This document shows, piece by piece, positions 33,541 to 53,780 of a DNA stretch of 64,000 nt. The stretch spans positions 1,826,873-1,890,872 of the forward strand of contig NZ_CP017074.1 of the NCBI RefSeq assembly GCF_001717465.1, read 5' to 3'. The notes beneath the pieces are model-generated. The model was not told where the DNA came from. It was given only the letters and a program-made list of their open reading frames with translations, and did no database searches. The translations under genes were made by a program, and so were the position numbers. Position 1 is the first letter of the stretch. The number at the start of each line of letters is the position of its first letter. The stretch is from Luteimonas sp. JM171. Lineage in GTDB: Bacteria > Pseudomonadota > Gammaproteobacteria > Xanthomonadales > Xanthomonadaceae.

Positions 33541-34098
33541 TCAGCCCATGACCGGCAGCGCGACGCCGGGGGCAAGCGCGATGGAAATCCCGGCCAGGAC
33601 GCTCCCGATCAGCGTGGCCGCAAGCACGTCGCTGGGGTAGTGCAGGCCGAGTACGACGCGCGAGACCGCCACGCTCGCCGCGAACGGCAGCAGCAGCCAG
33701 GCCAGCAGCGGGTAGTGGGCGAGCGCCACGAGGGTGAACGTCACGGCGTGCAGGGTATGGCCGGATGGGAAGCTGAACTCGTCCAGGGGGGCGGTCCATG
33801 CCTGGATGCGGCCGTCGGAGGCGAAGGGGCGGGGGCGCCGGGTCCAGCGCTTGAGCCACTTGTACAGGCTCAGGGCCGCGATTCCCGCCAGCGCCAGGTG
33901 GACCGAGGCCGCCAGGCCGTCGCGCCCGTCGACGACGATCATCGCCGCCATCAACACGTACCAGAACACCCCATCGCCCAGCCGGCTCACCGCCTGGAAG
34001 TAGGCGCGTACGGCCTGCCTGGTCCCCATGCGGTTGGCAGCCAGGCACCAGCCGGAGTCGCTGGCCAGCAGGCGCTCACGCAGTGGCGACGGTTCCAT
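33541..34098 (-). CDS. PAP2 family membrane phosphatase
   Basis: 185 residues from ATG at 34098. Several membrane helices surround the three PAP2 motifs: KWLKRWTRRPRPF, FPSGHTLHAV and SRVVLGLHYPSDVLAA (His and Asp). Such enzymes remove phosphate from phosphatidic acid, phosphatidylglycerophosphate or undecaprenyl diphosphate. It overlaps the end of the upstream family 4 glycosyltransferase by 23 bases. Given the Pho-box-like site ahead of that gene, a role in making diacylglycerol for phosphate-free glycolipids is attractive but unproven. Confidence 0.88.
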   Translation of the reverse strand: MEPSPLRERLLASDSGWCLAANRMGTRQAVRAYFQAVSRLGDGVFWYVLMAAMIVVDGRDGLAASVHLALAGIAALSLYKWLKRWTRRPRPFASDGRIQAWTAPLDEFSFPSGHTLHAVTFTLVALAHYPLLAWLLLPFAASVAVSRVVLGLHYPSDVLAATLIGSVLAGISIALAPGVALPVMG

Positions 34099-35218
34099 GG
34101 ACGTGCTCCCAGGTGGCGATGTCATGCAGCAGGCGGTCGAAGTCGGCCGCAACCTTGTCCGGGTGCAGGCCGGCGACCGCGCTGCGGGCGCGCCGGCCCA
34201 TGGCCGCGCGCAGATCGTCGTCGCAGCCGATATCCACCACGGCCTGGATGAAGTCGTCCTCGCCGGCCACGCGCGCGCCGTGGATGCCGGCGCGCAGGTG
34301 TTCGCGGGCCGCGCCGTAGTCGAACGCGACGGTAGCGATCCCGCTGGCCATGGCCTCCAGGGTCACGTTGCCGAAGGTTTCCGAAAGGCTGGGGAAGACG
34401 AACAGGTCCGCGCTTGCGAAATGGCGGGCCAGCTGTGCGCCGCGCTGGATGCCGCAGAAGATGAAGTCCGGGTTGTCACGGGCCAGCGCCGCACGCATCG
34501 GGCCATCGCCCACCCAGACCATCCGCGCCCGCGGCCGGTGGGCCTGCAGCTCCCGGAAGGCGCGCACGGCCAGCCCGAGGTTCTTCTCCGCAGCGATCCG
34601 TCCGACATGGATCGCGACCACTTCGTCGGTGCCCGCTCCCCACGTGTTGCGCAGGCCGCGATCGCGCAGCGCCGGATCAAAGCGTGCGGTGTCCACGGCG
34701 CGCGCGAGTCGCCGGGGGCGCTCAAAGCCCGCGTCGCGCAGGAACCCTTCCAGCTCGCGGGTGGGCGCCAGGGTCACGTCGGCGCGATTGTGGAAGTGGC
34801 GCATCCAGCGCAGGGCCAAAGGCTCCAGCAGCGGCACGCCGTAATCGCGCATGTACAGGTCGAAGCGGGTATGCACCGCCGAGGCCACGGGGATGCGCAG
34901 CCGCCGCGCCGCGCGCAGCGCGCTCCACCCCAGAGGCCCTTCGGTGGCGATGTAGATCGCATCGGGGCGATCGGCGGCCCAGGCGCGCTGCAGCCGGCCC
35001 GCCGGCACCAGGCCCAACCGCAGCCCGGGATAGCGCGGCACCGGGGCTCCGCGCACCAGCAGTTCGGCCGCAGCGGCGACCTGCTCCGGATGTTGCGCCG
35101 GCCGCACCACGCTGACCCTGCGGCCACGGCGCTCCAGTCCGCGCTGCAGGCTGCGCACCGTCAGGGCGACGCCGTTGACTTCAGGGGGCCAGGTTTCGGT
35201 GACGAGCGCGTAATGCAT
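34076..35218 (-). CDS. family 4 glycosyltransferase, candidate lipid glycosyltransferase
   Basis: 380 residues, GT-B fold. N-terminal MHYALVTETWPPEVNGVALT is characteristic of the GT4 branch that includes lipid glycosyltransferases and mannosyltransferases (SqdX, MgtA, Agt type). The C-terminal donor site has HVGRIAAEKNLGL, VWVGDGPM and FPSLSETFGNVTLEAMASG (EX7E). Start ATG at 35218. It overlaps the PAP2 gene, and a Pho-box-like repeat lies 58 bases upstream in the correct orientation. The acceptor could be diacylglycerol; a polysaccharide role is also possible. Confidence 0.83.
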   Translation of the reverse strand: MHYALVTETWPPEVNGVALTVRSLQRGLERRGRRVSVVRPAQHPEQVAAAAELLVRGAPVPRYPGLRLGLVPAGRLQRAWAADRPDAIYIATEGPLGWSALRAARRLRIPVASAVHTRFDLYMRDYGVPLLEPLALRWMRHFHNRADVTLAPTRELEGFLRDAGFERPRRLARAVDTARFDPALRDRGLRNTWGAGTDEVVAIHVGRIAAEKNLGLAVRAFRELQAHRPRARMVWVGDGPMRAALARDNPDFIFCGIQRGAQLARHFASADLFVFPSLSETFGNVTLEAMASGIATVAFDYGAAREHLRAGIHGARVAGEDDFIQAVVDIGCDDDLRAAMGRRARSAVAGLHPDKVAADFDRLLHDIATWEHVHGTVATA

Positions 35219-35276
35219 CGGGAACTCCGGTTTGACCCAGAATCCCCCCACGCGGTGTCACCGCCATTGCGCTTCG

Positions 35277-35294
35277 ATGACGCAGGGGTGACAT
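35277..35294 (-). promoter_or_regulatory. Pho-box-like direct repeat upstream of the GT4 gene
   Basis: Read on the minus strand: 7-mers ATGTCAC and GCGTCAT with a 4-base spacer, 10 of 14 positions matching CTGTCAT/CTGTCAY by hand count. A further GTGACAC falls in register 33 bases after the first. The box ends 58 bases before the start codon, close to the 60-61 bases seen at three other sites in this region. Confidence 0.5.
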
Positions 35295-35311
35295 CGCCAC
35301 CCCGGCAAGCC

Positions 35312-36457
35312 TTACCAGGCCAGCTGGACCCGGGCCTGGATGCTGGAAGGATCAACATCCAGCCAGCCCGTCGTCGCGCCCGCGTCGCGCCGGGTGTCGG
35401 CCTCGACGTAGTTGAGCGCCAGCTTCAGGTGCTCGCCGTGGTACCAGTTCACCCCGGCCGTCCACACGTCCATGGTGCCACCGGCGATCCCGGCGCCTGG
35501 ATCGTCGAGGTCCAGGCGGTCGTAGCGCACGCCCAGCTGCCACAGGCCGGCGGGCTCACCGCCTGCGCCCGGGGTGCGCGGCACGCCCTCGCGATAGTCC
35601 CAGGTCTGCCCGCCAGGCTGCCACACCACCGAGGCATAGCCGCCCGACCCGTCGAAATCCCGGCTGTCGCGGCGCTCCACGGTGGACTCGAACCATTCCG
35701 CCTGCACCTTGACCGGGCCCTGGATCCACATGGCTTCCGCGCCCACCGTGGTGGCCCGCCGCGCATCCGCGATCGCGCCGGTATCGAGCAGGCGGATCTC
35801 GGCCAGGTCCATGTTGGGCCGGGCGCGCAGGCGGATGCCATCGTCCGGGGCATCGCGGCGGCTGGCCGAAACGCCCAGATGCAGGACCCGGCCTTCCCCG
35901 CGCAGGGGAGCCCAGGTCCCGCGGGCGGCAAAGCCGTCGCCTTCGGCTTCATTGCGGGTCAGCTCGCGGTCAAACCAGCTGGCCGAAACGCTCCAGTCGC
36001 CCTGGTCGATGCCCCAGCCCACGCCCAGCCGGCGCGACACCGCGAAGGTATTGGTGGCGGCCGCCTTGGCGATGAAGTCGTTGGTGGTCGACGAACTCAG
36101 CTCCTCAAGCCCCGTGGGCTGCTTGAACTGTCCGACGCGTACGTGCTGGCTGCGCCCGTCAAATTGAATGCGGGCGTTGACGTCCAGCCACTTCTCGGAT
36201 TTGGAGTCGTAGCCCACCACCCAGTCGAATCCACTGGCGTGCGCGCCCTTGAGCACCAGTTCCGCACGCCGCACGTCGGTGTCGTCGCCCAGGTGGCTCC
36301 AGTCATCGCGGTAGCGGTATCCGTCGACCTGGAACAGGCCTTCGAACGACAGTTCGAAATCGCCGACTTCGCCGAGGTCGATCGCGTGTGCCTGCGGGGA
36401 TGCCGCAAGAAGCACGGCCAATGTCAACGGAGCGGATGCTGTGCGGATTCCAGCCAC
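35312..36457 (-). CDS. OprO/OprP-type phosphate-selective porin
   Basis: 381 residues, start GTG at 36457. Signal peptide about 1-25 (AHA cleavage), then a 16-strand-type outer-membrane barrel. The family stretch is visible: FELSFEGLFQVDGYRY, DDTDVRRAELVLKG, RVGQFKQPTGLEELSSS, and the C-terminus ends in Trp, as in barrel proteins. OprO/OprP porins take up ortho- and polyphosphate and are induced by phosphate starvation in Pseudomonas. It sits directly downstream of gspN, with four Pho-like 7-mers in the 106-base gap. Confidence 0.88.
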   Translation of the reverse strand: MAGIRTASAPLTLAVLLAASPQAHAIDLGEVGDFELSFEGLFQVDGYRYRDDWSHLGDDTDVRRAELVLKGAHASGFDWVVGYDSKSEKWLDVNARIQFDGRSQHVRVGQFKQPTGLEELSSSTTNDFIAKAAATNTFAVSRRLGVGWGIDQGDWSVSASWFDRELTRNEAEGDGFAARGTWAPLRGEGRVLHLGVSASRRDAPDDGIRLRARPNMDLAEIRLLDTGAIADARRATTVGAEAMWIQGPVKVQAEWFESTVERRDSRDFDGSGGYASVVWQPGGQTWDYREGVPRTPGAGGEPAGLWQLGVRYDRLDLDDPGAGIAGGTMDVWTAGVNWYHGEHLKLALNYVEADTRRDAGATTGWLDVDPSSIQARVQLAW

Positions 36458-36492
36458 GGAGACGACTCGCGAATGGGAGGGGGGCGAAGCTT

Positions 36493-36532
36493 ATGTCATC
36501 AAGCTGACACGTGTCTGCCACCCCATTGTCAT
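36493..36532. promoter_or_regulatory. tandem Pho-box-like ladder upstream of the porin
   Basis: Four 7-mers on the plus strand at 36493, 36504, 36515 and 36526, exactly 11 bases apart: ATGTCAT, CTGACAC, CTGCCAC, TTGTCAT. Each pair resembles one PhoB box (12/14 and 11/14 to the E. coli consensus). The best reading is opposite to the porin gene. Since TGNCA is nearly symmetric, the minus strand also fits, more weakly; there the distal pair ends 57 bases before the porin start. Confidence 0.6.
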
Positions 36533-36563: not shown

Positions 36564-37271
36564 TCAATCCATCCGCCCGCGTTTCACCCGGCTCCAGCCG
36601 CCGGGGCCGGGCAGGAAGCCCGCCGCCTCGAGAGCGATCCGTGCCGAAGGGTGCTCGACCACGGGGATCCGCGCCTCAAGTTCCCACTGGCCATCCGCAT
36701 GCACGCGCAGGCTCGCCTGCATCCGAGCCAGTGGCCCTTCGCCCGCCACGGCCGCCAGCGGCAGGACGGCGGCGCGGCCCTCGCAGGCGGGCGAGCCTTC
36801 AAGCACCAGCATGGGGGCGCCCGCCGCGGCGTCCGAAGACAGCACCACCCGCCCGCTGGCGGCGTGGCAGGCGTCGTCCGCGAACAGCACCTGCAGCCCG
36901 TCTGCCTGCACCTGGACCGGCAATGCCGAGGCCAGGGCGTGCGTGGGCAGTGAAAAGTGGCCGTGGAGGTCCTGTACGCCCCATCGACGGCCCGCGAGGA
37001 CTTGCGCCCGCAGGCCCGGTGTCGAAATCCACACCGCGCGGTCGCCGGCCAGCAGCCGCAGTGGGAGCAGGCGAGCCTGCGCGTTACCCAACGCCAGGCC
37101 GCGGATGCTGGCGTCCAGGAGGCGGCCGTTCCAGATGTTTCCACCGGCATGCCTGGCCGACAGGCCCCACTTCCGTGCACCGGCGGTCTCCAGGGCCAGC
37201 CCCAGCGGAAGCGTCGCCGCAAGCATGGCCGGCAACAGCAGAACGAAGAGGAGCAACAGGCGGCGGGTCAT
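36564..37271 (-). CDS. gspN: type II secretion protein N
   Basis: 235 residues. One N-terminal membrane helix (4-26) then a periplasmic domain. GspN is the optional last component of some type II systems. The pattern ARKWGLSARHAGGNIWNGRLLDASIRGLALGNAQARL is typical of the GspN family (WxG...G.A.L). It overlaps gspM by four bases (ATGA) and is the last gene of the secretion operon. Confidence 0.8.
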   Translation of the reverse strand: MTRRLLLLFVLLLPAMLAATLPLGLALETAGARKWGLSARHAGGNIWNGRLLDASIRGLALGNAQARLLPLRLLAGDRAVWISTPGLRAQVLAGRRWGVQDLHGHFSLPTHALASALPVQVQADGLQVLFADDACHAASGRVVLSSDAAAGAPMLVLEGSPACEGRAAVLPLAAVAGEGPLARMQASLRVHADGQWELEARIPVVEHPSARIALEAAGFLPGPGGWSRVKRGRMD

Positions 37272-37771
37272 TGGGCGGGAGCGAACCGCAGCTCCGCCCG
37301 GAGGCGGCCCTCGCGCCGTTCCACGTCCACTGCCACCGGGGCCACTCCGTGTTCCAGCCGTAGCCCATCGAGCCAGTTGAACAGGGTGCCTGCGGCAACA
37401 GCGTCCACCGCAACCTCAAGCCCGCCATCGGCAGTCTCACCGCAACGGTCGAAGCTGATTCCCGCCGCCCCGGCGCTGTCGGTGACCAGCCGCTGCAGCG
37501 CGTCGGCGGACAGGGTGTCGCCCGCCGGTCTTCCAGAGGCTGCAATGGCCGCCAGCGCGTGCTCGATCTCCGCCGCGTCCATCAAGGCGTCCGCATGCCG
37601 GTCCGCCGCGGCCTGGCGTACCCCCTGCAGCGGACCCAGCAGGCCGTACCAAGCGACGAACGCCGCGATGGCCGCGCACATGCCGGTGAGCATCCAGCGC
37701 TCGCGCGGGGCCCGCGCGTACCACCAGGCCACTGCGCGCCGAGCGAGCCTGGTGCCGCACCCACCGGTCAC
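37268..37771 (-). CDS. gspM: type II secretion protein M
   Basis: 167 residues from GTG at 37771, which forms a GTGA overlap with gspL. Cytoplasmic N-terminus, one membrane helix (about 27-48), then a periplasmic ferredoxin-like domain ending LEVAVDAVAAGTLFNWLDGL. GspM pairs with GspL in the inner-membrane platform. A much longer frame extends upstream, but that part is Arg-rich antisense of gspL and is not coding. Confidence 0.82.
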   Translation of the reverse strand: MTGGCGTRLARRAVAWWYARAPRERWMLTGMCAAIAAFVAWYGLLGPLQGVRQAAADRHADALMDAAEIEHALAAIAASGRPAGDTLSADALQRLVTDSAGAAGISFDRCGETADGGLEVAVDAVAAGTLFNWLDGLRLEHGVAPVAVDVERREGRLRAELRFAPAQ

Positions 37772-38898
37772 GGGGCGCTCTCTATCAAATCGACCTCGCT
37801 GTGCAGGCGGCCATCCACGCGCCGGGTGCCGGCGGCCACCAAGGTCAATCCATGGCTCGACGCGTGGTTGCCGAGCGCATCCAGCTGCGCGGCGTCGGAA
37901 TGTTGCACGAGGGCGCGCAGCGGCGAACCGGCCTGCCACGTCACCCGTTCGATGGCGGCGCCGTCCAGCTCCTGCATGCCGCTGGCAAGCGCCCGGAACG
38001 CGATCGGGAAATCATCGCGCGCCCGGTTCCGCGCCAGTCCTGCCCGAGCCGCCAGCACCGGATCCGCGTCCGCGCCAGGTCCCGGCAGGGCCTTCATCAC
38101 CCGTGCCTCAGCGTCCGACTCGAGTTTGCGCGCTGCCAGCAGATGGCCGGCGGCTTCCACGGTCCACAGCAGGGGGACCGAAACCGCCAGGGCCCCCGCC
38201 AGCACCGCGGCACGACGCCAGGCACGCCATCCCGTGGGCCGCCCGTCGGCCGCTGCGTACGGTCCCTGCAGCAGGTCAAGTGGCGCGGCCAGGGCACCCT
38301 TTGCCAGCAACGCCTCGACCGTTTCAGGTTCCCTGATCGGCGCGGTTGCATCGCCGATGATGGTGGCGGCAAGTTCCGCCTCCACCCTGAATGATCGCCG
38401 GGCCGAGCGGGCCAGGCAGTGGCCTTCCCGGATCACTGCGACCCAGCCTTCCGGATCGTCCGGCGCGGACAATGCCAGGTGGTCGGGAACCATCCTGTCG
38501 GCACGCACACCCAGGGCTTGCACGCGCGCGAGCCAATCCTCCATGGCCGCCTCGGCCACGGCGACGACCGGGCGCGGTTCCGCAGGCGCTGCCGCGTGGC
38601 CAACCGCTACATGGATGGCATCGACAGCGGCGAGTTCCTCACCGGCCTGGGCGCGCGCCGCGGCCCGCGCCTGCGCATCGCTGAACGCCGTGGGCTGCAG
38701 CCAGCGCGCCGGGGCATCGGTGCCGGGGACCAGCACCACGGTGAACGGTCCACGCTCCGGGACCTGCGACGGCCCGGACCCGATGCCCAGCAGCTCGCGT
38801 GACAGTACGCGGCCGTCGCCGGCCACGGCCAGGCGCACGGCCGGTTCTTCCGCCAGGGCAGGCAGGAGGACCACGTGGATCGGATCGGGCGGCTTCAT
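37768..38898 (-). CDS. gspL: type II secretion protein L
   Basis: 376 residues. A cytoplasmic actin-like domain (1-235) that holds the ATPase GspE, one membrane helix near 240-262 (VLAGALAVSVPLLW) and a periplasmic ferredoxin-like domain. Motifs are weakly conserved, but size, topology and position between gspK and gspM settle the call. ATGA overlap with gspK upstream. Confidence 0.85.
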   Translation of the reverse strand: MKPPDPIHVVLLPALAEEPAVRLAVAGDGRVLSRELLGIGSGPSQVPERGPFTVVLVPGTDAPARWLQPTAFSDAQARAAARAQAGEELAAVDAIHVAVGHAAAPAEPRPVVAVAEAAMEDWLARVQALGVRADRMVPDHLALSAPDDPEGWVAVIREGHCLARSARRSFRVEAELAATIIGDATAPIREPETVEALLAKGALAAPLDLLQGPYAAADGRPTGWRAWRRAAVLAGALAVSVPLLWTVEAAGHLLAARKLESDAEARVMKALPGPGADADPVLAARAGLARNRARDDFPIAFRALASGMQELDGAAIERVTWQAGSPLRALVQHSDAAQLDALGNHASSHGLTLVAAGTRRVDGRLHSEVDLIESAP

Positions 38899-39884
38899 TC
38901 CTCTGGACTCCAGCGTCTTGCCAGCAGGCGGGTGGGAGCGCCGGGCTCATCCTCCCGGTGTTCAATCAGCGTGCTGACAACCACTTGCGCCGGACCGCTG
39001 TCGACCTCGGCATGCAAGCGGAAGTAGCGGCTGCGCAGGTGCACCTGTTCCAGCACGCTGTTGTCGGGGATAGCCTCGGCCAGGCCCGGACTGGCCCAGA
39101 ATTCATCGGGGCTGCGCCAGCCGTGCACGGGACGGGAGGCAATGACCCGCCGCGCGCGTTCGACATCGATTGCGCCGGCGGCAAGCATCGCCAGCACGGG
39201 CGCATCCTGGTCCTGCAGGGTGTTGACGTTGACGGGCGAGAGCGCAGTCGTGGGCAGGGCGCACACGTGTGGACGCAGGCGTGAATATACGGCCGGCGTG
39301 TAGCCGTGGATCGCCCGCAGCTCGCTCGCTTCGGCGAGCAGGGTGGCGCCGGTGCGGTAGCCGTCGCGCCCGCGTGCATAGCCGGGATCTTCATGGCCCA
39401 GCCCCTCCCGCTGCTGGTCGCTGTCGATCCAGTCGGCCAGAGCGTCGGCCAATGCGCGCGCCTGCGCCGCGGGAAAATCCAGCGCGAGCAGCAGCAATTC
39501 GTACTGGGCCACGCCGGCTTCGTGGCGGGTGAGCAGTTCGCCGGCGCCATGCACCACGCTGTTGAGGTTGAAACAGGCAGTGGCGTCGGACAGCGTGGCG
39601 CGGATCATGCCGTCGTCCACCGGGAACAGGAAGCTGCGCCCGTTCCAGCCGCCGGCCAGGGTGGTCACCCCCGGGTCGCGCCGCGCCAGGCGTTCGATCT
39701 GTGCCATCGCAAGGGCCTCGGCACCGAGCGCATGCCATCGCGCCTGCGCGACCGCCTGGGCGTTCGCGGCCCGGCGCAGGCCGAAGCGGATGTCGTCGAG
39801 CATCGCCACCACCAGCACTGCCATCACCGCCACCAGCAGCAGCACGGTGAGCAGGGCGACCCCGCGCTGTCGGCGAGCGCTCAC
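38895..39884 (-). CDS. gspK: type II secretion minor pseudopilin K
   Basis: 329 residues from GTG at 39884 (GTGA overlap with gspJ). Large tip pseudopilin. The prepilin site is RRQRG then VALLTVLLL; the residue at +5 is Thr and not Glu, which is the hallmark of GspK. After the hydrophobic stem come the helical SAM-like repeats with SPVNVNTLQDQDAPVLAML. It forms the pseudopilus tip with GspI and GspJ. Confidence 0.9.
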   Translation of the reverse strand: MSARRQRGVALLTVLLLVAVMAVLVVAMLDDIRFGLRRAANAQAVAQARWHALGAEALAMAQIERLARRDPGVTTLAGGWNGRSFLFPVDDGMIRATLSDATACFNLNSVVHGAGELLTRHEAGVAQYELLLLALDFPAAQARALADALADWIDSDQQREGLGHEDPGYARGRDGYRTGATLLAEASELRAIHGYTPAVYSRLRPHVCALPTTALSPVNVNTLQDQDAPVLAMLAAGAIDVERARRVIASRPVHGWRSPDEFWASPGLAEAIPDNSVLEQVHLRSRYFRLHAEVDSGPAQVVVSTLIEHREDEPGAPTRLLARRWSPEE

Positions 39885-40468
39885 GGCCACTGTCCCTGCA
39901 TCAGGAACGCCTGCTCGACGCGACCGATGCGTTCCAGGTCCAGCGTGAGCCGCACGGCTTCGGGCACGCGGTCCATGCCGCCGGGCCAGCCGTCCATCCA
40001 TGCGCCCTGGAACCGGTACTGCACCCGCGCGCCCTGCACGCCGTCGATCACCAGCTGGGGTGGATCCATCCGCGCGCCGTCGAGCATTGGCCGCGCGCTG
40101 CGTTCCAGCCGGCCGTCCTGCAGCCGGTACTCCACGTACTGGAGCGAGGCCCGCGGCGCCCCCTGCGGGTTCTCCCAGCCGTACCGGGTGAGGGCGAACA
40201 ACAGCCCCGTGCCCGGCTCGGCGGTGCCGGTGAAGGCCTGCACCGCGGCGATGCCGGAGGCGTTGCGGGTGCGCCGCGGCGCCGCCTGCGCCAGGTCGGC
40301 CTCCAGCAGCGCACGCGCGCGCTGCAGATCGCCCACGTGCGCCATCCGCGCCTGGGTGACGCCCTGGCTGGCGCTGGCCCAGGCCATCACCGTGACCCCG
40401 CCGGCGGCCAGCAGTGCGAATACCGCCAGTGCCACCAGCATCTCCACCAGGGTGAATCCCCGCACCAT
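39881..40468 (-). CDS. gspJ: type II secretion minor pseudopilin J
   Basis: 195 residues. Very short leader, cleavage after Gly4 (MVRG) followed by FTLVEMLVALAVFALL with Glu at +5. C-terminal half has LQYVEYRLQDGRLERSARP, typical of GspJ. The start overlaps the gspI stop by one base (TGATG), so translation is coupled. Confidence 0.9.
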   Translation of the reverse strand: MVRGFTLVEMLVALAVFALLAAGGVTVMAWASASQGVTQARMAHVGDLQRARALLEADLAQAAPRRTRNASGIAAVQAFTGTAEPGTGLLFALTRYGWENPQGAPRASLQYVEYRLQDGRLERSARPMLDGARMDPPQLVIDGVQGARVQYRFQGAWMDGWPGGMDRVPEAVRLTLDLERIGRVEQAFLMQGQWP

Positions 40469-40848
40469 CAGCGTGCATTCCGGAACAGCACCGTTTCGGC
40501 GGCGATGCGGTCGCTGCCCGCCGCGTACACCGCGATGTCGATGCGCAGGATGTCGGCGTCGTCCGTGGCCGAGACAGCGCGGGTCCAACGCCACTGGCGA
40601 TCGCCCAGCTGCTCTTCGCCCTGGCCCTGCGCGGCCACCATGTCCAGCGGCTCCACCGCGGCTTCCACCGCACGGTTGCCGGCGACGATCCCGGCCAGCA
40701 CGCGTTCCTCCACGATGACCGCGGTGCGGGTGCTTTCCCCGGCCAGGTTGAGCAGCGCCAGCACCACCAGCGAGAACACCGCCAGCGCCACCAGCAGTTC
40801 CAGCAGTGAGAATCCGGCCCTGCGGCCGGGGCGATGGATCCTGGTCAT
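40468..40848 (-). CDS. gspI: type II secretion minor pseudopilin I
   Basis: 126 residues. Prepilin peptidase site after Gly12 (RRAG), then FSLLELLVALAVFSLVVLA with Glu at +5. Size and the conserved DRQWRWTRAVSATDDADILRI region match GspI. Overlaps gspH by four bases. Confidence 0.9.
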   Translation of the reverse strand: MTRIHRPGRRAGFSLLELLVALAVFSLVVLALLNLAGESTRTAVIVEERVLAGIVAGNRAVEAAVEPLDMVAAQGQGEEQLGDRQWRWTRAVSATDDADILRIDIAVYAAGSDRIAAETVLFRNAR

Positions 40849-41333
40849 GGCGCTTCCGCCACCCGCACGCTGCCGTCGGCATCCACCTGTACCTGCAGGA
40901 CGCCGCGGCCGTCGCCGAGCACCAGCGCGGCCGGTTCCGCCGTGCCGATGGGCTCGAAGGTGAACCAGACCGGCGCGTCGTCGGCGCCGTCCTGCACCGG
41001 CGCGACGCCTGGGGTCCACGCCGCCGGATCGAACGGACGCCCGGACAGCGGCTGCCAGCCCCCGCCGCGGGCGATGAGGAACCGGTAGCCGGCGTCGTCA
41101 GCCTGGACGCGCAGCGCGCGCGTGGACAGGATCGCCTCCTGCCGGGCCTGTGCAAGCCGGGTCGCCAGCGTGTCCGCATCGCGCCGCAGCGCCGTGTCCG
41201 GTGACGGGCCGGTCAGCAGCACCGCCGCGCCCAGCAATCCCACCACGGCCAGCACCACCATCAGCTCCACCAGGGTGAAGCCGCCGACGGCGCGGAACCG
41301 CGCACTTTGGCCAGGGGTGGTGCGCGCGGGCAT
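40845..41333 (-). CDS. gspH: type II secretion minor pseudopilin H
   Basis: 162 residues. Cleavage after Gly18 (VGG) then FTLVELMVVLAVVGLLGAA. The body has TRLAQARQEAILSTRALRV, the GspH pattern. Starts three bases after gspG ends. Confidence 0.9.
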   Translation of the reverse strand: MPARTTPGQSARFRAVGGFTLVELMVVLAVVGLLGAAVLLTGPSPDTALRRDADTLATRLAQARQEAILSTRALRVQADDAGYRFLIARGGGWQPLSGRPFDPAAWTPGVAPVQDGADDAPVWFTFEPIGTAEPAALVLGDGRGVLQVQVDADGSVRVAEAP

Positions 41334-41336
41334 CCG

Positions 41337-41783: not shown

Positions 41784-41800
41784 GTAGATACTCCGTGGAA

Positions 41801-46598: not shown

Positions 46599-47407
46599 GG
46601 CGATGTCGTCCGCAGGGTGAGGGTCTGCAACTGGCCGTTGCGCTGTACGGTCAGGCGGACCTCGTCGCGACCGGCGAGCTGGGACTCCAGCTCCGCCAGC
46701 CGTTCGGGATTGAGCTGGTTGCCATCCACGGCCACCAGTACGTCGCCGGCCTGGAGACCGGCCTGGCGCAGCGCTTCGCCGCCGCCGCGGGGAATGAGCG
46801 TGTAGCCGGTGACCCGTCCGCCTTCGGTGCGGGCGCGCAGGCCGGCCTGGGCGAGCAGCGCAGCCGGGTCGACCGCGGCGTCCGCGCTGGCCGCGGGCGG
46901 CGGCGCCGCCGAAGGCAGGCTGGCCGCGACCGGGGCGGTGCGGGCGGGCAGGGTGGATGCTCCGGGGTCAAGCTCCAGACGCTGCTCGCCGCCGCCCGTG
47001 CGCAGTACCGCGTGCCCCGCGCCGACGGCCGCAAGCGTGATCCCGGGAGCCACTTCGTCGCCGACCTGGAAGGCAGCCTGGGGGTCCCCGTCCTTGGTGG
47101 AAAGGATGGCCGAGCCGGAATCGCCAGACACTCGCACCGCGTGCAGGCGGAAGCCGCTGGCGCTGGCCGTGGCCGGCCCGCTGCGGGCGTCAGGATGGAA
47201 GGGGTCGAAGGCCAGGGCGATGGCTGGCGCGGGGCCGGCGGCGCGGCCCGTATCGGCAGGCGGCCAGTCGCCCACCGGGCCCGGTGGCGCGGCCAACAGC
47301 CATGCCAGGCGCGCGGCCTGGGCGGCGAGCAGCGCAACCAGGATCACTTCAACGACGGTCCGCAGCAGGGTGCTGCGATTGACGTGTATCAGGGACTGCA
47401 ATGACAC
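46595..47407 (-). CDS. gspC: type II secretion protein C
   Basis: 270 residues from GTG at 47407; an in-frame ATG at 47446 would add 13 residues. One membrane helix (about 15-38), the periplasmic HR domain that contacts the secretin, a Pro/Ala linker and a C-terminal PDZ-like domain (GYTLIPRGGGEALRQAGLQAGD, VDGNQLN). I prefer GTG because a Pho-box-like site would then lie 61 bases upstream as at sister promoters, whereas ATG 47446 would leave almost no leader. Neither start has a clear Shine-Dalgarno. Confidence 0.85.
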   Translation of the reverse strand: MSLQSLIHVNRSTLLRTVVEVILVALLAAQAARLAWLLAAPPGPVGDWPPADTGRAAGPAPAIALAFDPFHPDARSGPATASASGFRLHAVRVSGDSGSAILSTKDGDPQAAFQVGDEVAPGITLAAVGAGHAVLRTGGGEQRLELDPGASTLPARTAPVAASLPSAAPPPAASADAAVDPAALLAQAGLRARTEGGRVTGYTLIPRGGGEALRQAGLQAGDVLVAVDGNQLNPERLAELESQLAGRDEVRLTVQRNGQLQTLTLRTTSP

Positions 47408-47468: not shown

Positions 47469-47486
47469 GCGACTGGTTGATGACAG
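47469..47486 (-). promoter_or_regulatory. Pho-box-like direct repeat upstream of gspC
   Basis: Minus strand: perfect 7-mer CTGTCAT, spacer CAAC, then CAGTCGC; 12 of 14 positions match the E. coli Pho box by hand count. It ends 61 bases before the GTG start of gspC and would place the whole secretion operon under PhoB. Confidence 0.55.
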
Positions 47487-47520
47487 TTCGGGGTCAGCTG
47501 CCACATTGTGCGGCCGCCGG

Positions 47521-47561: not shown

Positions 47562-50189
47562 TCAGAACGAGGTCGACAGGCTCAGCGTGTAGGACACGCC
47601 GGGTTCGTAGCGGTACACATCCACCTTGTTGCCGCCGGCCTGCTGGTACTGGCGGAAGTCGGTCTCCAGCAGGTTGCGCGCGCTGAAGCCCAGGGTCACC
47701 GGATTGCGGCCGAAGTTGAACTCCTGGCGGAGCACGAAGTCCAGCGAGGTGCCCGGGTTTTCCATGTAATCCGGCTGTCCCGGCCGGCCGCGGGCGCTGA
47801 CCCGCTCGCCGACGTAGTTGGCGATGAGGGTGGCCTGGGTGGTGTCGCCCTCGATGCCGATCTGCAGGTTGCCGATGTGGTTGGACTGGCCCTGCAGCTC
47901 GCTGCCGTCGCGCACGAACAGGGTCGCGTCCTGCGGGCTGGCGAAGCCGTAGGGATGGACCAGATCACCGTCCTTGACCTCGACCTCCGAATCCGACCAG
48001 GTGTAGTTGGCCGCCAGGTACAGGCGCTTGTCGCCCCACCAGCTCGCCTGGACGGGAAGGTCGAAGTACTTCTTCACCTCGGTCTCAAAGCCGAACAGCG
48101 TGGCCGACGGGGCGTTGAGGAAGCTTTGCAGGATGCCGCCGCCGGGGGCGTCGTTGACGTTGCTTTCGATCGGGCGGTCGATGTCCTTGTAGAAAGCGCC
48201 GACCGTGAAGTACTCGCCGGAGCCGAAGAACCACTCGTAGCGGGCGTCCAGGTTCACCAGTTCGCTGTCGACCAGGTACGGGTTGCCGTAGAAGACGCGG
48301 TCGATGTCGGGGTCCAGGTACTGCAGCGGCGACAGCTCGCGGAACTGCGGCCTGGCGATGGTCTTGGACGCGCCGAAGCGGATCTGCTGGTTGTCCGAGA
48401 AGTTCCAGGTGACCGTCGCCGCCGGCAGCACGTAGCTGTTGCGCAGGGGATCCACGCCCCCCTGCCGCTCGCCGGTGAAGATGTTGTAGGTGTGGACCGC
48501 CTGGGTCGCGTCCTCGTAGCGCACGCCCACGGTGGCACGCACGAACGGGTTGATCTCGGCCTCGGCCTGCAGGTAACCGGCCTTGACCTTGAGGGTGGCG
48601 TCGTAGGCGGCGTCGCCGGAGTTGCCGGTGACCTCGCGCAGGCGCAGCAGGTCCTGGCTCAGGTTGTAGTCCGAGAACAGGTAGTCCGGCCGCTGGTAGC
48701 GGTTGTAGTGCGGCAGCGGGCCATCGAGCGCCAGGAACCGGAACTCGCGGTTCTCGGCATTGCGGTCGTTGTCCGAATACGCCGCGCCGCCGGCCAGGGT
48801 GATGTCGCGCTCGACCGGCAGGCGCCAGGTCACGTCGACACCGCCGCTGGCGACCTCGTCCTCGACGTTGCTGAAGCGCATGTAGTTCTGCACCCGCGAC
48901 GCGTCGTGCGACCAGTAGCCGTCAATGTTCTCGTAGCGGATGCCGGTCTCGTAGGGTGCATCACGGGTCGCCCGTGCCACCGCGCCGCGCCACTCGATCT
49001 TCAGGTCGTCGTATTCGCCGAAGGCGTGGCTGCCCGTGACCTGGTTGTTGATCAGCTCGCGCTCGAACCACTCCGTGTAGTCATCGCGGACGTCGAAGCC
49101 GGCCAGGGTGTCGTGGCCGTCGCGGGTGCGGGTTTCCTTGAGCGTGTCGTGAACATACAGCGAGGTCAGCGACACGCGGTGGCGCGGGCTCTCCCAGCCG
49201 GCGCCCAGCAGCACGTTGACCTTGGCGTTGTTGGTGGTGGAAAGGAAGTCGTAGCTCGAGTTGTACTGCACCGCCTGGTCGATGAAGACCGGGTCCTGCT
49301 GGACCCCAAAGCGCGTGCGCCACTCGTTGTCGAAGCCACCCACGGCGATGAAGCCGAGCCTGGCATCGTTGCCCATGTCCATCGACCAGCCGGCGCTTCC
49401 GCCGAAGCTCAGGTCCGGGTCGATGCTCTTTTTTTCCTGCAACACGCGGATATTGGCGTTCTGCAGGCTCCGGCCGATCCGGCGGATGTCTTCGCGCCCG
49501 AACTCGCCCAGGTCGACGCGGCGACCGCTGGCCATCGCATCGCGCAGTTCGCGCGGAATCTTGCGGGTGCCGTCGTCGTAGCCCCAGTAGTCATCGTCGG
49601 AACCGAAGTAGGTCAGGCCCTTCTCGAAGGTGGTGACGCTGTTGCCGCCGGTGCCAATGGACAGGTTGAGGAAGGGCTCGTCAGGAACCGCCAGCGACTG
49701 GAGGTCGATCACGCCGCCGCCAAACTCGCCGGGGTAGCGCGCCGAATAGGTCTTCTGCACGGTGACGCTCTCGAGCACTTCACTCGGGAACAGGTCCAGC
49801 GGCACCACGCGCTGCAGCGGCTCGGGGCTGGGCAGCGGCGAGCCGTTGAACAGCGCCGAGGAATAGCGCTCGCCCAGGCCGCGCACATACACGAATTTGC
49901 CGCGTACCAGGCTCAGGCCGGTGACCCGGGTCAGCGCCGCCGCGGCGTCGCTGTCGCCGGTGCGCTCGAAATCCTCGCGGGTGACGAACGAGGCCACCTC
50001 GGAGGTCTGGAGCATCGGCTCGGGGATGTATTCGCCACGTACCTGGATCGCGTCCAGCTGCACGGCGTCCTGGCCGGCGGTGTCTTCAGGAGTCTGCTGG
50101 GCCAATGCGGCGCACGGCGCCAGCAGCGCGGCGATCGCCAGCGACAGGTGGCGCCGGGCCAATCGGTTTCGTTTCAGGTTGGATTTCAT
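47562..50189 (-). CDS. TonB-dependent outer-membrane receptor
   Basis: 875 residues. Signal peptide ending ALA-Q near residue 31, a plug domain (EVASFVTREDFERTGDSDAAAALTR..., with VYVRGLGERYSSALFNG) and a 22-strand-type barrel ending in Phe. It has no N-terminal signalling extension. The position, between a surface lipoprotein gene and a type II secretion operon with Pho boxes, suggests uptake of a phosphate-containing compound; no ligand can be read from the sequence. GC-rich hairpins lie on both sides. Confidence 0.92.
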   Translation of the reverse strand: MKSNLKRNRLARRHLSLAIAALLAPCAALAQQTPEDTAGQDAVQLDAIQVRGEYIPEPMLQTSEVASFVTREDFERTGDSDAAAALTRVTGLSLVRGKFVYVRGLGERYSSALFNGSPLPSPEPLQRVVPLDLFPSEVLESVTVQKTYSARYPGEFGGGVIDLQSLAVPDEPFLNLSIGTGGNSVTTFEKGLTYFGSDDDYWGYDDGTRKIPRELRDAMASGRRVDLGEFGREDIRRIGRSLQNANIRVLQEKKSIDPDLSFGGSAGWSMDMGNDARLGFIAVGGFDNEWRTRFGVQQDPVFIDQAVQYNSSYDFLSTTNNAKVNVLLGAGWESPRHRVSLTSLYVHDTLKETRTRDGHDTLAGFDVRDDYTEWFERELINNQVTGSHAFGEYDDLKIEWRGAVARATRDAPYETGIRYENIDGYWSHDASRVQNYMRFSNVEDEVASGGVDVTWRLPVERDITLAGGAAYSDNDRNAENREFRFLALDGPLPHYNRYQRPDYLFSDYNLSQDLLRLREVTGNSGDAAYDATLKVKAGYLQAEAEINPFVRATVGVRYEDATQAVHTYNIFTGERQGGVDPLRNSYVLPAATVTWNFSDNQQIRFGASKTIARPQFRELSPLQYLDPDIDRVFYGNPYLVDSELVNLDARYEWFFGSGEYFTVGAFYKDIDRPIESNVNDAPGGGILQSFLNAPSATLFGFETEVKKYFDLPVQASWWGDKRLYLAANYTWSDSEVEVKDGDLVHPYGFASPQDATLFVRDGSELQGQSNHIGNLQIGIEGDTTQATLIANYVGERVSARGRPGQPDYMENPGTSLDFVLRQEFNFGRNPVTLGFSARNLLETDFRQYQQAGGNKVDVYRYEPGVSYTLSLSTSF

Positions 50190-50283: not shown

Positions 50284-51747
50284 TCAGCAGCCAGGGCTGT
50301 CGTCGGTCAGCCCGCAGGTCCAGCCCTCCCACCAGGTGTCATTGGCATCGCGGACGGCGCCGATGTAGTCCACGTCCTCGAAGAATCCATGCACTTCGCT
50401 CAGGCCCTGGTACGCAGGCACGGCGTTCTCATTGGCGCCGTTGATGAAGCCGTTGAGCGTCGACGAACCCACCACGTTGTTGGTGCCGGCCTCGAAAGCG
50501 TCCTGCGCGCGCTGGTCTTCGAACGCCACCGGGCATGAGAAGTGCACCGAGTGGAAGGTGCCGGTGGTGTTGGCGTCGCGGATTTCCAGGCAGCGTTCGC
50601 CCGAGCCGCTTCCGCCCGCCGGTCGGGTGACCACCGAGTTGTAGAACGAGGCCTGGGTACCCTGGTTGAGGTGGATCGCAGCGCCCCCGCCGGCACGGCC
50701 GATGTAGGTCATGTTGGCCACGCGCGGCTGCGAATAGGGCTCGCGGTTGATGCTGCTCCACTCGTTCATGCGGTCGCCGCCACCCGCCCGCTGGATGACG
50801 ATGCCGAACTGGATGCCGCCGTCCCAGCCGGTATCGGTGTCGATGGAGTCGTCGTCGGCCCCGGTCACCACCAGGTAGCGCGCGTTGAGGGTGCCGCCGA
50901 AGATCTCGATGCCGTCATCGGAACTGTTGTGGATATGGAAGTACTCGAGCACCGTCCCGGCGCCCGCGCCGGCGGCGGTGATGCCCTGCAGCTCGTTGTT
51001 CGGGGAGATCTCGAAGCCGGAGTACTTGACCTGCACGTAGCGGATGCGGCCGCTGCTGTCGTTGGGCGCGTTGCCGCCGTAGAACGCGTTGGTGCCCTCG
51101 ACCTGACTCTGGCACTGCGGGGTGCCGGAGACGGTGTCGCCGGGGCAGGCGTTGATCGGCGCGCGGCCGGCCAGGATCAGGCCGCCCCACAGGCCGATGG
51201 TGTCCGCGGTGGTCTCGCCTTCGACGTCGGCGCGCGCGGTGAAGATGATCGGCTCCTCGGCGGTGCCCTCGGCATGGATCTCCGAGCCGCGGTTGACGAT
51301 CAGGTAGTCGTTGCCCGAGGAGGCGAACAGGGTCACGCCGGGCTCGATGGTGAGCGAGCCGCGCGGCACCGGGTTCGGGTTGGAGGCGTCACCGCCCTGG
51401 TCCTGGCCGACCTGCACCGCGCCGGCGATGGCATACACCGTGCCATCGCGCTTGGGCACAACCAGGTTGCCGGTGATCAGCTGGGGCAGCCGGCAGGCGC
51501 GCAGCGAGCCGTCGGCGACGGTGCCCACGTTGGAAAAGCCGGTTGGGCAATCCTCGGCCGGGCCCGCGCTGGGGGGTGGCGGCTCGCTCGGCGGCGGCGG
51601 AGCCGGCGGCGGCGGGGCAGTCGGCGGGGGCGGCGGGAAGGCGCCTTCGCCAGGGGATGCAACGCGGTCGGCGCCGTTGCCGCACGCGCTCAGGGCGAGT
51701 GCCGCGCCAAAGGTCATCAGCAAGGTCCGGTAGTTGTTCGCAGCCAT
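50284..51747 (-). CDS. surface/secreted lipoprotein, ElpS-like by context
   Basis: 487 residues from ATG 51747 (GGAGAG upstream). Lipobox LSAC at residues 19-22, a Pro-rich spacer (about 36-60), then a large beta-rich domain with GNLVVPKRDGTVYAIAG, LTIEPGVTLFASSGNDYLIVNRGSEI, IIFTARAD, WGGLILAGRAPIN, DDSIDTDTGWDGGIQFGIV, patterns seen in right-handed beta-helix surface proteins. Two Cys lie near the C-terminus. In Caulobacter the phosphate-starvation lipoprotein ElpS is encoded next to a 12-gene type II system, as I recall; the same layout here suggests the same role. Homology itself is unchecked. Confidence 0.75.
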   Translation of the reverse strand: MAANNYRTLLMTFGAALALSACGNGADRVASPGEGAFPPPPPTAPPPPAPPPPSEPPPPSAGPAEDCPTGFSNVGTVADGSLRACRLPQLITGNLVVPKRDGTVYAIAGAVQVGQDQGGDASNPNPVPRGSLTIEPGVTLFASSGNDYLIVNRGSEIHAEGTAEEPIIFTARADVEGETTADTIGLWGGLILAGRAPINACPGDTVSGTPQCQSQVEGTNAFYGGNAPNDSSGRIRYVQVKYSGFEISPNNELQGITAAGAGAGTVLEYFHIHNSSDDGIEIFGGTLNARYLVVTGADDDSIDTDTGWDGGIQFGIVIQRAGGGDRMNEWSSINREPYSQPRVANMTYIGRAGGGAAIHLNQGTQASFYNSVVTRPAGGSGSGERCLEIRDANTTGTFHSVHFSCPVAFEDQRAQDAFEAGTNNVVGSSTLNGFINGANENAVPAYQGLSEVHGFFEDVDYIGAVRDANDTWWEGWTCGLTDDSPGC

Positions 51748-51859: not shown

Positions 51860-51915
51860 AAGACAGCGCTTTTGTAGTGGCCGCCGATGACAATTCCGGG
51901 TCGCCGGGATGACAC
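51860..51915 (-). promoter_or_regulatory. scattered Pho-like 7-mers upstream of the lipoprotein gene
   Basis: On the minus strand: GTGTCAT (51915-51909), TTGTCAT (51893-51887) exactly 22 bases on, and CTGTCTT (51866-51860). The first two are two 11-base steps apart, but the intervening 7-mer matches poorly. This is a weak candidate for PhoB control. Confidence 0.3.
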
Positions 51916-51965: not shown

Positions 51966-51983
51966 ATGTCATTTCTCCGTCAA
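51966..51983 (+). promoter_or_regulatory. Pho-box-like direct repeat upstream of the dioxygenase gene
   Basis: 7-mers ATGTCAT and CCGTCAA separated by TTCT, 11 of 14 positions matching the consensus by hand count. It ends exactly 60 bases before the GTG start, as at the tonB-like gene. Confidence 0.55.
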
Positions 51984-52043
51984 CCCCAGGCACTAGCCTC
52001 GCGAGGCCATAAGCCAGCCGGCGCAAACCGGACAGGAGATCGC

Positions 52044-52892
52044 GTGCAAAAGCAGGCCAACCCCGAACTTGAAGCCTGGATCCTTGACCAGGTGCGCGCG
52101 GGCCATTCGCCCGAAGCGGTGGTCGCGCCGATGCTTGATCAGGGCTGGCAGGAGCAGGCGGCCATTGACGCGGTGGAAACCGTGGTCCGCCGCCACCTGG
52201 AGGAACACGCCCGTGGAAGCGGGGTTCCGGTGCCGGTGCCCGTGCCCGCGCCGGTGGCCTGGAACGGCCCTTCCGTGCTGAACGCGGGCGATCGCGAAGT
52301 GCAGGTGCTGGCGCACCTGGTGCATCCGCAGGTGGTGGTGTTCGGGGGGCTGCTTTCACACGAGGAGTGCGATGGGCTGGTGGAGCTCTCGCGCGGCCGG
52401 CTCGCGCGCTCGTCCACCGTCAATCTGAATACCGGCGCCGACGAGGTGCACGCGGCACGCACCAGCCAAGGGGTGTTCCTGCGCCGGGGCGAGAACGCGC
52501 TGGTGGCCCGGATCGAGGCGCGCATCGCGGCGCTGCTGGAATGGCCGGTGGAAAACGGGGAGGCGATGCAGGTGCTGCGCTATGGCGTGGGCGCGGAGTA
52601 CCAGCCGCACCATGATTACTTCGACCCGGACCGGCCCGGCGTCGGCCGCATACTCGCCCGCGGAGGCCAGCGCGTGGCCTCAGTGGTGATGTACCTCAAC
52701 ACGCCCACGCGCGGAGGCGCCACCACCTTCCCCGATGTGCGCTTCGAAGCCGCCGCGGTCAAGGGCAACGCCGTCTTCTTCAGCTACGACCGGCCCCATC
52801 CGATGACCGCCACCCTGCACGCCGGGGCGCCGGTGCTTGAAGGCGAAAAATGGGTGGCAACAAAGTGGCTGCGTGAGCGCGCGCACGCCTGA
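52044..52892 (+). CDS. prolyl 4-hydroxylase-like 2OG-Fe(II) oxygenase
   Basis: 282 residues from GTG 52044, preceded by AGGAG. N-terminal helical part (LEAWILDQVRAGHSPEAVVAPML), a Val/Pro-repeat linker near 65-73, then the P4H domain. Iron ligands are His and Asp in YQPHHDYFDPD and the distal His in MTATLHAG; Lys in EKWVATKW binds 2-oxoglutarate. ASVVMYLNTPTRGGATTFP is a strong family stretch. It is divergent from the lipoprotein gene and downstream of a Pho-box-like site. A target among the exported proteins is possible but not shown; no signal peptide is visible. Confidence 0.88.
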   Translation: MQKQANPELEAWILDQVRAGHSPEAVVAPMLDQGWQEQAAIDAVETVVRRHLEEHARGSGVPVPVPVPAPVAWNGPSVLNAGDREVQVLAHLVHPQVVVFGGLLSHEECDGLVELSRGRLARSSTVNLNTGADEVHAARTSQGVFLRRGENALVARIEARIAALLEWPVENGEAMQVLRYGVGAEYQPHHDYFDPDRPGVGRILARGGQRVASVVMYLNTPTRGGATTFPDVRFEAAAVKGNAVFFSYDRPHPMTATLHAGAPVLEGEKWVATKWLRERAHA

Positions 52893-52982
52893 CCGCGGTT
52901 ATTTTCGGGTCGACAGAGGAGTTTTTCTTTCCGGGATTCCGTTCGTCGGCGAGAAGCGACCGATCGTCTGAAAAAAGGGTGG

Positions 52983-53000
52983 ATGTCATGTGACTGTCAT
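52983..53000 (+). promoter_or_regulatory. near-perfect Pho box upstream of the tonB-like gene
   Basis: 7-mers ATGTCAT and CTGTCAT separated by GTGA, 13 of 14 positions matching the E. coli Pho box. It ends 60 bases before the start codon. CATTAAT follows directly. The strongest PhoB-site candidate in the window. Confidence 0.75.
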
Positions 53001-53060
53001 CATTAATCCGCCCTCCCTGGTGTGTCATGGGGCCCACGCAACTCATGGCGGGGGTCGGGA

Positions 53061-53780
53061 ATGAAGCGGTTTCTCCTTGGTGTTGCAGCGCTTGCTGCGC
53101 TGGCATGTACGGGCCCGGCAGCCGTGGCTGCCGATGGCGGGCAAGCGGTGGGGCAGCGCGTTTACACCTACGCGGTGCAGATTGATGGCAACGGCAGGAT
53201 TGGGCAGATTGCCCGCCATGGTGGACCGCAGGACGCGCTTGGCCGGGAATTGGCGGCCGAGGCGCGCACATGGTTGTTCAGCCCGGACACCAGGCCGGGA
53301 GAGTCCAGCGGCGCGGAATACCACACCTTCCTGCGGCTGGTGGTTGCGCCCGGTGCGGAGCCTGGCAACTACGAACTGGTCTCTGCGACCACGGGTCCGG
53401 CGCCCCGCGAGCTGGTCCTGCCGCACTATCCGGTGCGCGAACAGCGTGCCGGATACGAGGGCACGGTGGTAATGAAACTGGCGATCGGCGAGGACGGCCG
53501 GGTCCTGGACGCCCAGGTGGACAGCGTGCACGGCAAGGTCTCGCGCAGCATGGTCTCCGCTGCCAGGCGGGTTGCTCCGCAATGGAAGTTCGTGCCCGAG
53601 CGGGTGGACGCGCGGCCGGTGAGCAGCACGGTGCTGTGGCCGGTGTGCTTCCTGGGCGCGGCCAGCAGCGCCACCGAGTGCGCATGGAACGGCCCGGAGG
53701 CCCAGCGCTACTCCAGCAAGATGGTGCTGGCGCTGGACCCGGTGGCGCGCCGCGTCACGCCGCTGGCCTTTGAGCGCTGA
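53061..53780 (+). CDS. TonB C-terminal-domain protein with signal peptide
   Basis: 239 residues. The N-terminus (1-24, ending VAA) looks like a cleavable signal peptide and not the uncleaved membrane anchor of true TonB. The region after residue 120 fits the TonB C-terminal domain: PHYPVREQRAGYEGTVVMKLAIGEDGRVLDAQV, then VAPQWKFVPER. It may be a periplasmic TonB-like accessory and not an ExbBD-coupled energiser. It lies three genes from the receptor and has the best Pho box of the region. ATG 53061. Confidence 0.75.
   Translation: MKRFLLGVAALAALACTGPAAVAADGGQAVGQRVYTYAVQIDGNGRIGQIARHGGPQDALGRELAAEARTWLFSPDTRPGESSGAEYHTFLRLVVAPGAEPGNYELVSATTGPAPRELVLPHYPVREQRAGYEGTVVMKLAIGEDGRVLDAQVDSVHGKVSRSMVSAARRVAPQWKFVPERVDARPVSSTVLWPVCFLGAASSATECAWNGPEAQRYSSKMVLALDPVARRVTPLAFER

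Follow-up and report, generated by a model that had tools for sequence, protein, structure and literature searches.

A putative PhoB-controlled phosphate-scavenging island around the second type II secretion system of Luteimonas sp. JM171

Why would a bacterium keep a second type II secretion system (T2SS) beside a surface lipoprotein, an anion porin family member and a pair of lipid enzymes? We address this question for an island of about 20 kb (20.2 kb) in Luteimonas sp. JM171. It lies in a 64-kb window, by which we mean the whole stretch of DNA analysed (bases 1826873-1890872 of a 2.99-Mb single-contig genome); island coordinates below are window positions. A preliminary description of the sequence had proposed a phosphate-scavenging programme combining secretion, surface capture, uptake and lipid remodelling. 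That proposal is supported by promoters that score like those of phoB and pstS, by linkage to pst and phoB, and by the Caulobacter T2SS belonging to the PhoB regulon. Judging from sequence, we give a probability of roughly 82% to the reading that this is a PhoB-controlled phosphate-scavenging island around a second, Xcs/Caulobacter-type T2SS. The observations that carry it are the gene content, the conserved Pho-type repeats and the linkage to pst and phoB.

Gene calling with Pfam and NCBIfam family searches found every gene named in the preliminary description in its place:

33541..34098, minus strand: PAP2-family phosphatase, directly after GT4 (Pfam PF01569, 1e-20)
34076..35218, minus strand: GT4 glycosyltransferase, lipid glycosyltransferase-like (Pfam PF13692/PF13439)
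~35312..36415, minus strand: OprO/OprP porin (Porin_O_P; Pfam PF07396, 2e-73), start uncertain, reading frame open to 36457
36564..47407, minus strand: type II secretion operon of 12 genes, gspN, M, L, K, J, I, H, G, F, E, D, C
43000-44484, minus strand: gspE, part of the T2SS operon
44481-46598, minus strand: gspD, part of the T2SS operon
46595-47407, minus strand: gspC, part of the T2SS operon
47562..50189, minus strand: TonB-dependent receptor (TBDR), TonB-Xanth-Caul-like (Pfam Plug and barrel; TIGR01782 at 219 bits, cut-off of 310 not reached)
50284..51747, minus strand: ElpS-like lipoprotein with lipobox Cys22, proline-rich linker and predicted right-handed beta-helix
52044..52892, plus strand: 2-oxoglutarate (2OG)-Fe(II) oxygenase, prolyl-4-hydroxylase homologue (Pfam PF13640)
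53061..53780, plus strand: TonB_C-domain protein with signal-peptide-like start (Pfam PF03544, 7e-13)

Read along the minus strand, the order is elpS, TBDR, gspC-D-E-F-G-H-I-J-K-L-M-N, porin, GT4 and PAP2; divergently, on the plus strand, come the 2OG gene and then the TonB_C gene, with an nth-like gene (by eye) at the far end. The gsp operon is complete from gspC to gspN: gspD, E, F, G, I, J, K and L exceed NCBIfam cut-offs and gspC, M and N exceed Pfam cut-offs, while the assignment of gspH, under its cut-off at 67 of 80 bits, leans also on gene order. An elpS homologue, a TBDR and gspC-N stand in a single cluster, which is the mark of a Caulobacter-type locus. The porin belongs to the OprO/OprP family and matches Porin P in the PDB (2o4v, E=1.5e-18); by family it would be phosphate-selective. 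For GT4 the top NCBIfam match was GlcN_PG_synth at 133 bits, under that family's 480 cut-off, and a PDB sequence search at 1e-10 gave no match. GT4 homologues occur in 128 of 149 family genomes, and PAP2 directly follows GT4 on the same strand in 30/30 loci (the best 30 of 128 GT4 matches). On inspection by eye, the TonB_C protein starts like a signal peptide and shows no anchor further on; its homologues sit between nth-like and 2OG genes in seven other loci, where the best upstream sites score 9-13 of 14 on the Pho-box scale defined below.

The island T2SS is the second of the genome. Another secretin above cut-off lies at genome position 408960-410888 in an Xps-like cluster, so the island system is the extra one. 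Its closest described counterpart is in Caulobacter crescentus. There, ElpS (CC0170), a TonB receptor (CC0171) and gspC-N (CC0172-0184) share the lipoprotein-receptor-gspC..N order of the island (PMC2996285; PMC11208175), an order that Le Blastier et al. (2010) described and noted in Xanthomonas campestris too (PMC2996285). In agreement with the preliminary description, Caulobacter ElpS, encoded beside a T2SS, is made specifically under phosphate starvation (PMC2996285), and in a 2024 transcriptome the PhoB regulon includes the T2SS, TonB receptors, PstSCAB and genes for glycosphingolipids (PMC11208175). A phosphate/PhoB link is thus common to both loci, for the island as read from sequence. 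Lipid replacement in the Caulobacter Pho regulon involves PhoB-controlled lipid-degrading enzymes and a glycosyltransferase (PMC11208175), whereas the island has a PAP2-GT4 pair. Unlike the Caulobacter locus, the island and its relatives are joined to oprO (in relatives also pstS), the TonB_C gene, the prolyl-hydroxylase homologue and GT4-PAP2. Our own comparison used a Caulobacter sp. locus (L226) rather than CC0170: gene order is as in the island, ElpS is 48% identical over the best segment, and the linker is glycine-rich in L226 but proline-rich in the island. In the genus of L226, 11 of 31 genomes have an ElpS match.

Pseudomonas aeruginosa Hxc is also a second, phosphate-regulated T2SS. 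Hxc is not known to belong to an ElpS/TBDR/pst island. A study of 2010 reportedly dealt with the function of Xcs and Xps. Among relatives, a gspC-like stretch stands just upstream of elpS in seven alphaproteobacterial loci (L222, L224, L227, L243, L256, L267, L276), and two of the proteins upstream of elpS in loci outside Xanthomonadaceae matched the T2SSC family of Pfam.

The island system is also like Xcs of Xanthomonas, a single 12-gene C-N operon with a TonB receptor and further genes upstream (PMC2585010). In the Xanthomonas Xcs loci that we compared (L207-L210, L228), ElpS is 66-68% identical and the order is kept, including the 2OG gene. They differ from the island in that no same-strand porin was found in the cluster of the four genus-g18 loci, where pst is elsewhere.

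Are these genes under phosphate control? We scored the strict consensus CTGTCAT-N4-CTGTCAT, an 11-bp direct repeat of 14 positions; a looser form permits C as the last base. This fixed consensus, that of E. coli and used in the preliminary description, stood in for a matrix. A matrix obtained by expectation maximisation from the phoB and pstS promoters locked onto promoter-specific letters of units 2-3 and was set aside. The sites in the window are:

35277..35294, minus strand: Pho-box-like repeat of GT4, 58 bases before the ATG; 10/14 strict, 11 with C
36493..36532, best read on the plus strand, opposite the gene: four-unit 11-bp ladder before the porin
47469..47497, minus strand: Pho-box-like repeats of gspC, 61 bases before the GTG start; 11/14 strict, 12 with C
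51887..51914, minus strand: candidate Pho box of elpS (by eye), two TGTCAT units 22 bp (2 x 11) apart, ~140 bp before the ATG
51966..51983, plus strand: Pho-box-like repeat of the 2OG gene, 60 bases before the GTG start; 11/14
52983..53000, plus strand: Pho-box-like repeat of the TonB-like gene, 60 bases before the start at 53061; 13/14

The scores first given for the TonB-like, oxygenase and GT4 repeats were reproduced with the strict consensus, as was the spacing of 58-61 bases to the start codon. The 12/14 reported for gspC holds if the last base may be C; scored strictly, the repeat reaches 11/14. A search of all 2.99 Mb for TGTCAY-N5-TGTCAY, allowing one mismatch, gave 16 sites, against three for a reversed-pattern control. 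Four of the 16 sites, the GT4 repeat among them, lie within the 20.2-kb island, where 0.11 are expected (Poisson p 5e-6, or 2e-4 when the porin ladder is counted once). Two more precede phoB and pstS, respectively, and the sole zero-mismatch site of the genome is the one before the TonB_C gene.

The repeats are conserved in relatives. We took up to 20 kb around the elpS orthologue from 19 of 21 relatives with >50% identity, leaving out two partial matches; gsp genes are present in 17 of the 19 loci and the 2OG gene in 18 (the exception is a 7-kb contig). The elpS-region promoter tests used 16 deduplicated loci, four near-duplicates having been dropped. Each promoter received the score of its best CTGTCAY-N4-CTGTCAY within at most 200 bp upstream, and the mean over deduplicated loci was compared with 1200 permuted motifs. 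No permutation scored as high for gspC (10.86 vs 8.91 permuted, n=14), elpS (10.0 vs 8.77, n=15), 2OG (10.71 vs 8.72, n=14) or oprO (11.6 vs 9.01, n=10). For GT4 (11.46 vs 8.95; n=26 deduplicated from the best 30 loci) 2/1200 did, and for the TonB_C gene (11.62 vs 8.83, n=8) 3/1200, all three of them shifted registers of the motif. The island promoters, at 10.0-11.62, rank with the positive controls phoB (11.5) and pstS (11.56), while 37 other window genes stay at the permutation level (8.43; 587/1200 as high). The gap between elpS and TBDR, our other negative control, gave 8.44 (761/1200). The 11-bp period is the peak for the gspC, 2OG, oprO, GT4 and TonB-like promoters. In 62 named loci outside Xanthomonadaceae, mostly from Alphaproteobacteria, the result was replicated for elpS (10.80 vs 8.95, n=54, 0/1200) and gspC (10.81 vs 8.69, n=21, 1/1200), both exactly at the 11-bp period, with a control at 8.89 vs 8.79 (n=44, 385/1200). 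Pho-type repeats precede elpS and gspC across the relatives.

The third line of evidence is linkage, taken from a comparison of coordinates in 20 genomes. In 13 of them (G087, G001, G055, G019, G003, G123, G093, G021, G047, G066, G131, G109, G018) pstS is found 6-18 kb downstream of elpS, in the same orientation. It is not at the island end in the JM171 genome, G097 and four genus-g18 genomes, and G136 ends at a short contig. A same-strand porin stands between elpS and pstS in nine of the 13; G123 and G047 have a porin homologue on the other strand, and G001 and G131 gave no porin match. Among relatives with a same-strand porin at this place, the porin is followed directly by pstS in 9/10. In loci L067 and L071 pstC, pstB and phoU come after pstS, and pst-phoU genes were seen by eye in L190, L191 and L192. 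GT4, for its part, follows phoB in the same orientation at 5-11 kb in 13/20 genomes, and the intervening genes, where inspected by eye, are phoR-, ppk- and ppx-like. It is 75 kb off phoB in G087 and on another contig in G066 and G047; no GT4 homologue was found in G003 and G136. In the JM171 genome and G097 it follows oprO, inside the island. The larger pieces of the island therefore have independent ties to Pho genes. G047 and G131 gave no T2SS match at the locus, yet elpS, receptor and pst are kept there. In Pseudoxanthomonas spadix and Luteimonas deserti, coordinates suggest that pst is linked to the locus, provided that the same contigs are concerned. For the 2OG and TonB_C genes, promoters and position make membership of the Pho group probable. 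As a side observation, L190 and L191 carry DUF2282/DUF692 peptide-system-like genes (by eye) after pstSCAB-phoU.

Several observations weigh against a PhoB-controlled island. The four-unit ladder before the porin is real, as first described, but it faces the wrong way: it scores 12/14 three times (C allowed) on the strand opposite the porin and 10/14 in the gene direction. The elpS site in the window is weak, its best forward 11-bp-period score being just 10/14 and lying away from the candidate box, and the TonB receptor gene lacks a separate Pho site. Over the Xanthomonadaceae loci, elpS scores slightly higher at a gap of 9 (10.27) than at 4 (10.0), and reverse-strand scores are raised too (2OG 10.14, oprO 10.4). 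The elpS-TBDR control stretches include part of the elpS coding end, which makes the 37-gene control the cleaner one. In the five named Xanthomonas loci the gspC sites are modest, at 10-11/14. The pst genes lie >1 Mb from the locus in X. phaseoli, and about 350 kb from it in Luteimonas granuli. In Caulobacter, the T2SS is expressed in rich medium, with gspE/gspL mRNA just 1.7-fold up in poor medium, a receptor is induced in both media, and loss of elpS did not change phosphatase activity (PMC2996285). On the porin itself, related loci with a same-strand porin (n=9) have forward site scores of 10-13. The TGNCA units of the ladder are nearly palindromic, which leaves its reading direction ambiguous.

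How else could the locus be explained? T2SSs often export plant-wall enzymes, and the island system could be a general or host-associated one like Xps, with incidental Pho-like repeats. We regard this as very improbable: two bacterial classes keep the repeats with the expected position and period, and the 19-kb Xps-like cluster of the same genome has no intergenic site of at least 10/14. As to a host-associated role, one account of 2008 raises the possibility that xcs does not function, and up to then no virulence effect of an xcs mutation had been reported (PMC2585010). A 2024 review still calls the role of Xcs in Xanthomonas unclear and cites lowered xcs expression in stringent-response mutants (PMC11292268).

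It is also conceivable, if improbable, that ElpS and the TBDR serve another nutrient, such as iron or an oligosaccharide, and neighbour Pho genes by chance. TonB receptors beside 2OG oxygenases are common in iron uptake, and the ElpS fold weakly matches polysaccharide-lyase-like beta-helices. However, elpS promoters carry the repeats over 54 deduplicated loci, the elpS-TBDR pair remains beside pst where no T2SS was found next to it, and homologues of pst, phoU-phoB or phoA lie within 10 kb of elpS in 4 of the 80 named loci (L242, L249, L256, L273); the phosphate-specific production of Caulobacter ElpS points the same way. To the idea we find least probable of all, that an OmpR-family regulator other than PhoB reads a TGTCA-type direct repeat here, one must grant that a consensus match alone cannot name the binding protein. 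Against it, phoB and pstS of these genomes are preceded by the same motif with a similar score, and the linkage is to pst and phoB.

For a PhoB-controlled island, the following mechanism may be proposed, in which we infer PhoB binding in JM171, the cargo, the ligand and the lipid product. At low phosphate, phosphorylated PhoB would bind the 11-bp direct repeats and turn on the island genes. The T2SS would then export phosphate-releasing hydrolases from the periplasm, ElpS, as a surface beta-helix lipoprotein, would form with the TonB-dependent receptor a capture and import pair for a phosphorus-bearing ligand, and the OprO porin would admit phosphate or polyphosphate. GT4-PAP2 may convert phosphatidic acid to diacylglycerol and then glycolipid, saving phosphorus, and the TonB_C protein and the prolyl-4-hydroxylase homologue would be co-induced as island members.

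Other Pho-like sites of the genome lie near genes of related interest. The remaining ten of the 16 sites comprise three inside called genes (L003, L012, L128), two with no called gene nearby (L005, L009) and five that are intergenic (L004, L006, L007, L008, L129). The L004 site (G000:C1:59000; one mismatch) lies about 250 bp before an Oar-like TonB receptor gene. At L007:1501-1517 another one-mismatch site precedes a gene (1611-2870; G000:C1:879783) with a DNA/RNA non-specific endonuclease domain, possibly a further member of the Pho regulon. About 17 kb left of the window, a PhoA-family alkaline phosphatase gene (L290:4063-5640; G000:C1:1808158-1809537) has an 11/14 intergenic site upstream, and its product is a candidate T2SS cargo.

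What is the lipoprotein at the head of the island? Window ElpS has lipobox Cys22; in the predicted structure residues 1-60 are of low confidence and are followed by a confident right-handed beta-helix (mean pLDDT 88.5). It matched no Pfam family, its profile gave no PDB sequence match, and 1 of 13 ElpS relatives matched Beta_helix, at 0.004. A fold search returned weak beta-helix matches (best E 8.6e-4, TM-scores mostly 0.2-0.4), the top ones being those polysaccharide-lyase-like proteins. Among the named ElpS loci (the best 80 of 470, some on short contigs) 76 have a receptor homologue and 54 a homologue of gspD or gspE, which in three cases is solely a gspE-like match of 31-32%. In Caulobacter, ElpS release is T2SS-dependent and its surface display is not (PMC2996285), which fits the relatives without a T2SS beside elpS. 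The Caulobacter lipoprotein, to which we liken island ElpS, contains a stretch that is cleaved upon release; the cut in the released form is placed at position 38, counted downstream of the acylated Cys in the text and from the N-terminus in the legend (PMC2996285), and this position would fall in or near the linker. The 76 proteins encoded upstream of elpS in 27 loci outside Xanthomonadaceae had no enzyme family in common, none of the families listed (25 of 125) occurring in more than three proteins. We also observed a second class of ElpS-like proteins (L162-L180; 30-37% identity in local comparison), for which 19 of 23 loci were examined and which were excluded from the promoter tests. These 19 have a TonB receptor in 13 cases and no gsp genes nearby; in L174 a phoB homologue comes directly after.

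The proline-rich linker raises a further question about the 2OG gene, which is divergent from elpS and carries its own Pho-type repeat. Its product has prolyl 4-hydroxylases (P4Hs) as closest PDB relatives (3itq/5hv0, E=3e-42; 2jig, 9e-34), and HxD...H and one Lys are invariant in 14 sequences. HxD...H is the iron triad of these enzymes, and the downstream Lys is typical for prolyl 4-hydroxylases. The gene thus bears the features expected of a P4H, and the ElpS linker holds the proline motifs PPPP, PTPTPT and PAPAP. Do the two occur together? In 71 of 80 loci the linker could be parsed (nine were skipped), with a P4H-like gene taken as a tblastn match of 30-76% identity; the cut-offs of 0.2 Pro for a proline-rich linker and >200 bits for a strong homologue were both chosen after the data had been seen. 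A proline-rich linker is present in all 30 loci that carry a P4H-like gene; no such gene accompanies any of the 23 proline-poor linkers, and 18 loci combine a proline-rich linker with no P4H-like gene in the stretch examined (Fisher p 8e-8, rank test 1e-6, statistics that ignore phylogeny). The 57 loci with long flanks gave 23/23 vs 0/20. A whole-genome search, covering 34 genomes of which three with an adjacent gene served as controls, found a strong homologue elsewhere in 9 of 14 genomes (of the 18) with a proline-rich linker and no adjacent P4H, and in 0 of 17 (of the 23) with proline-poor linkers. Among the 17 proline-poor genomes, six have a weaker homologue (100-158 bits), and such a homologue is the best match in 3 of the 14 proline-rich ones.

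Shared ancestry is a serious alternative explanation of this pattern: the groups compared in the whole-genome search largely follow order, sphingomonads vs Caulobacterales. Co-occurrence nevertheless spans Xanthomonadaceae, Hyphomonas-like and Sphingomonadales loci; an ElpS tree of 70 sequences implies, by parsimony, seven changes of linker type and nine of P4H label, and P4H-bearing loci fall in three separate regions of the tree and three gene positions. Alternatively, the P4H homologue acts on another substrate such as EF-Tu. We therefore offer as a speculative, rather unlikely proposal that phosphate starvation induces a P4H and that this enzyme modifies the proline-rich linker of ElpS at the cell surface, where hydroxyproline would tune stiffness, proteolytic release or glycosylation of the lipoprotein.

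A T2SS in the PhoB regulon has already been published for Caulobacter, so the kind is known and its form is enlarged here. In the literature searched, outside of which most subscription journals lay, we found no report of the oprO-pst/T2SS junction, and within it the inference that the Xanthomonas Xcs T2SS serves phosphate starvation is new. Xcs, without known function according to a 2024 review (PMC11292268), gains a candidate role that is testable at low phosphate: since Pho-type promoters are conserved and relatives show pst/oprO linkage, the direct test of Xcs is low phosphate and not virulence. With ElpS, a bacterial prolyl hydroxylase that is putatively phosphate-controlled has a concrete candidate substrate. 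The island unites capture by TonB receptor and lipoprotein, type II secretion, phosphate transport and lipid replacement as one inherited unit.

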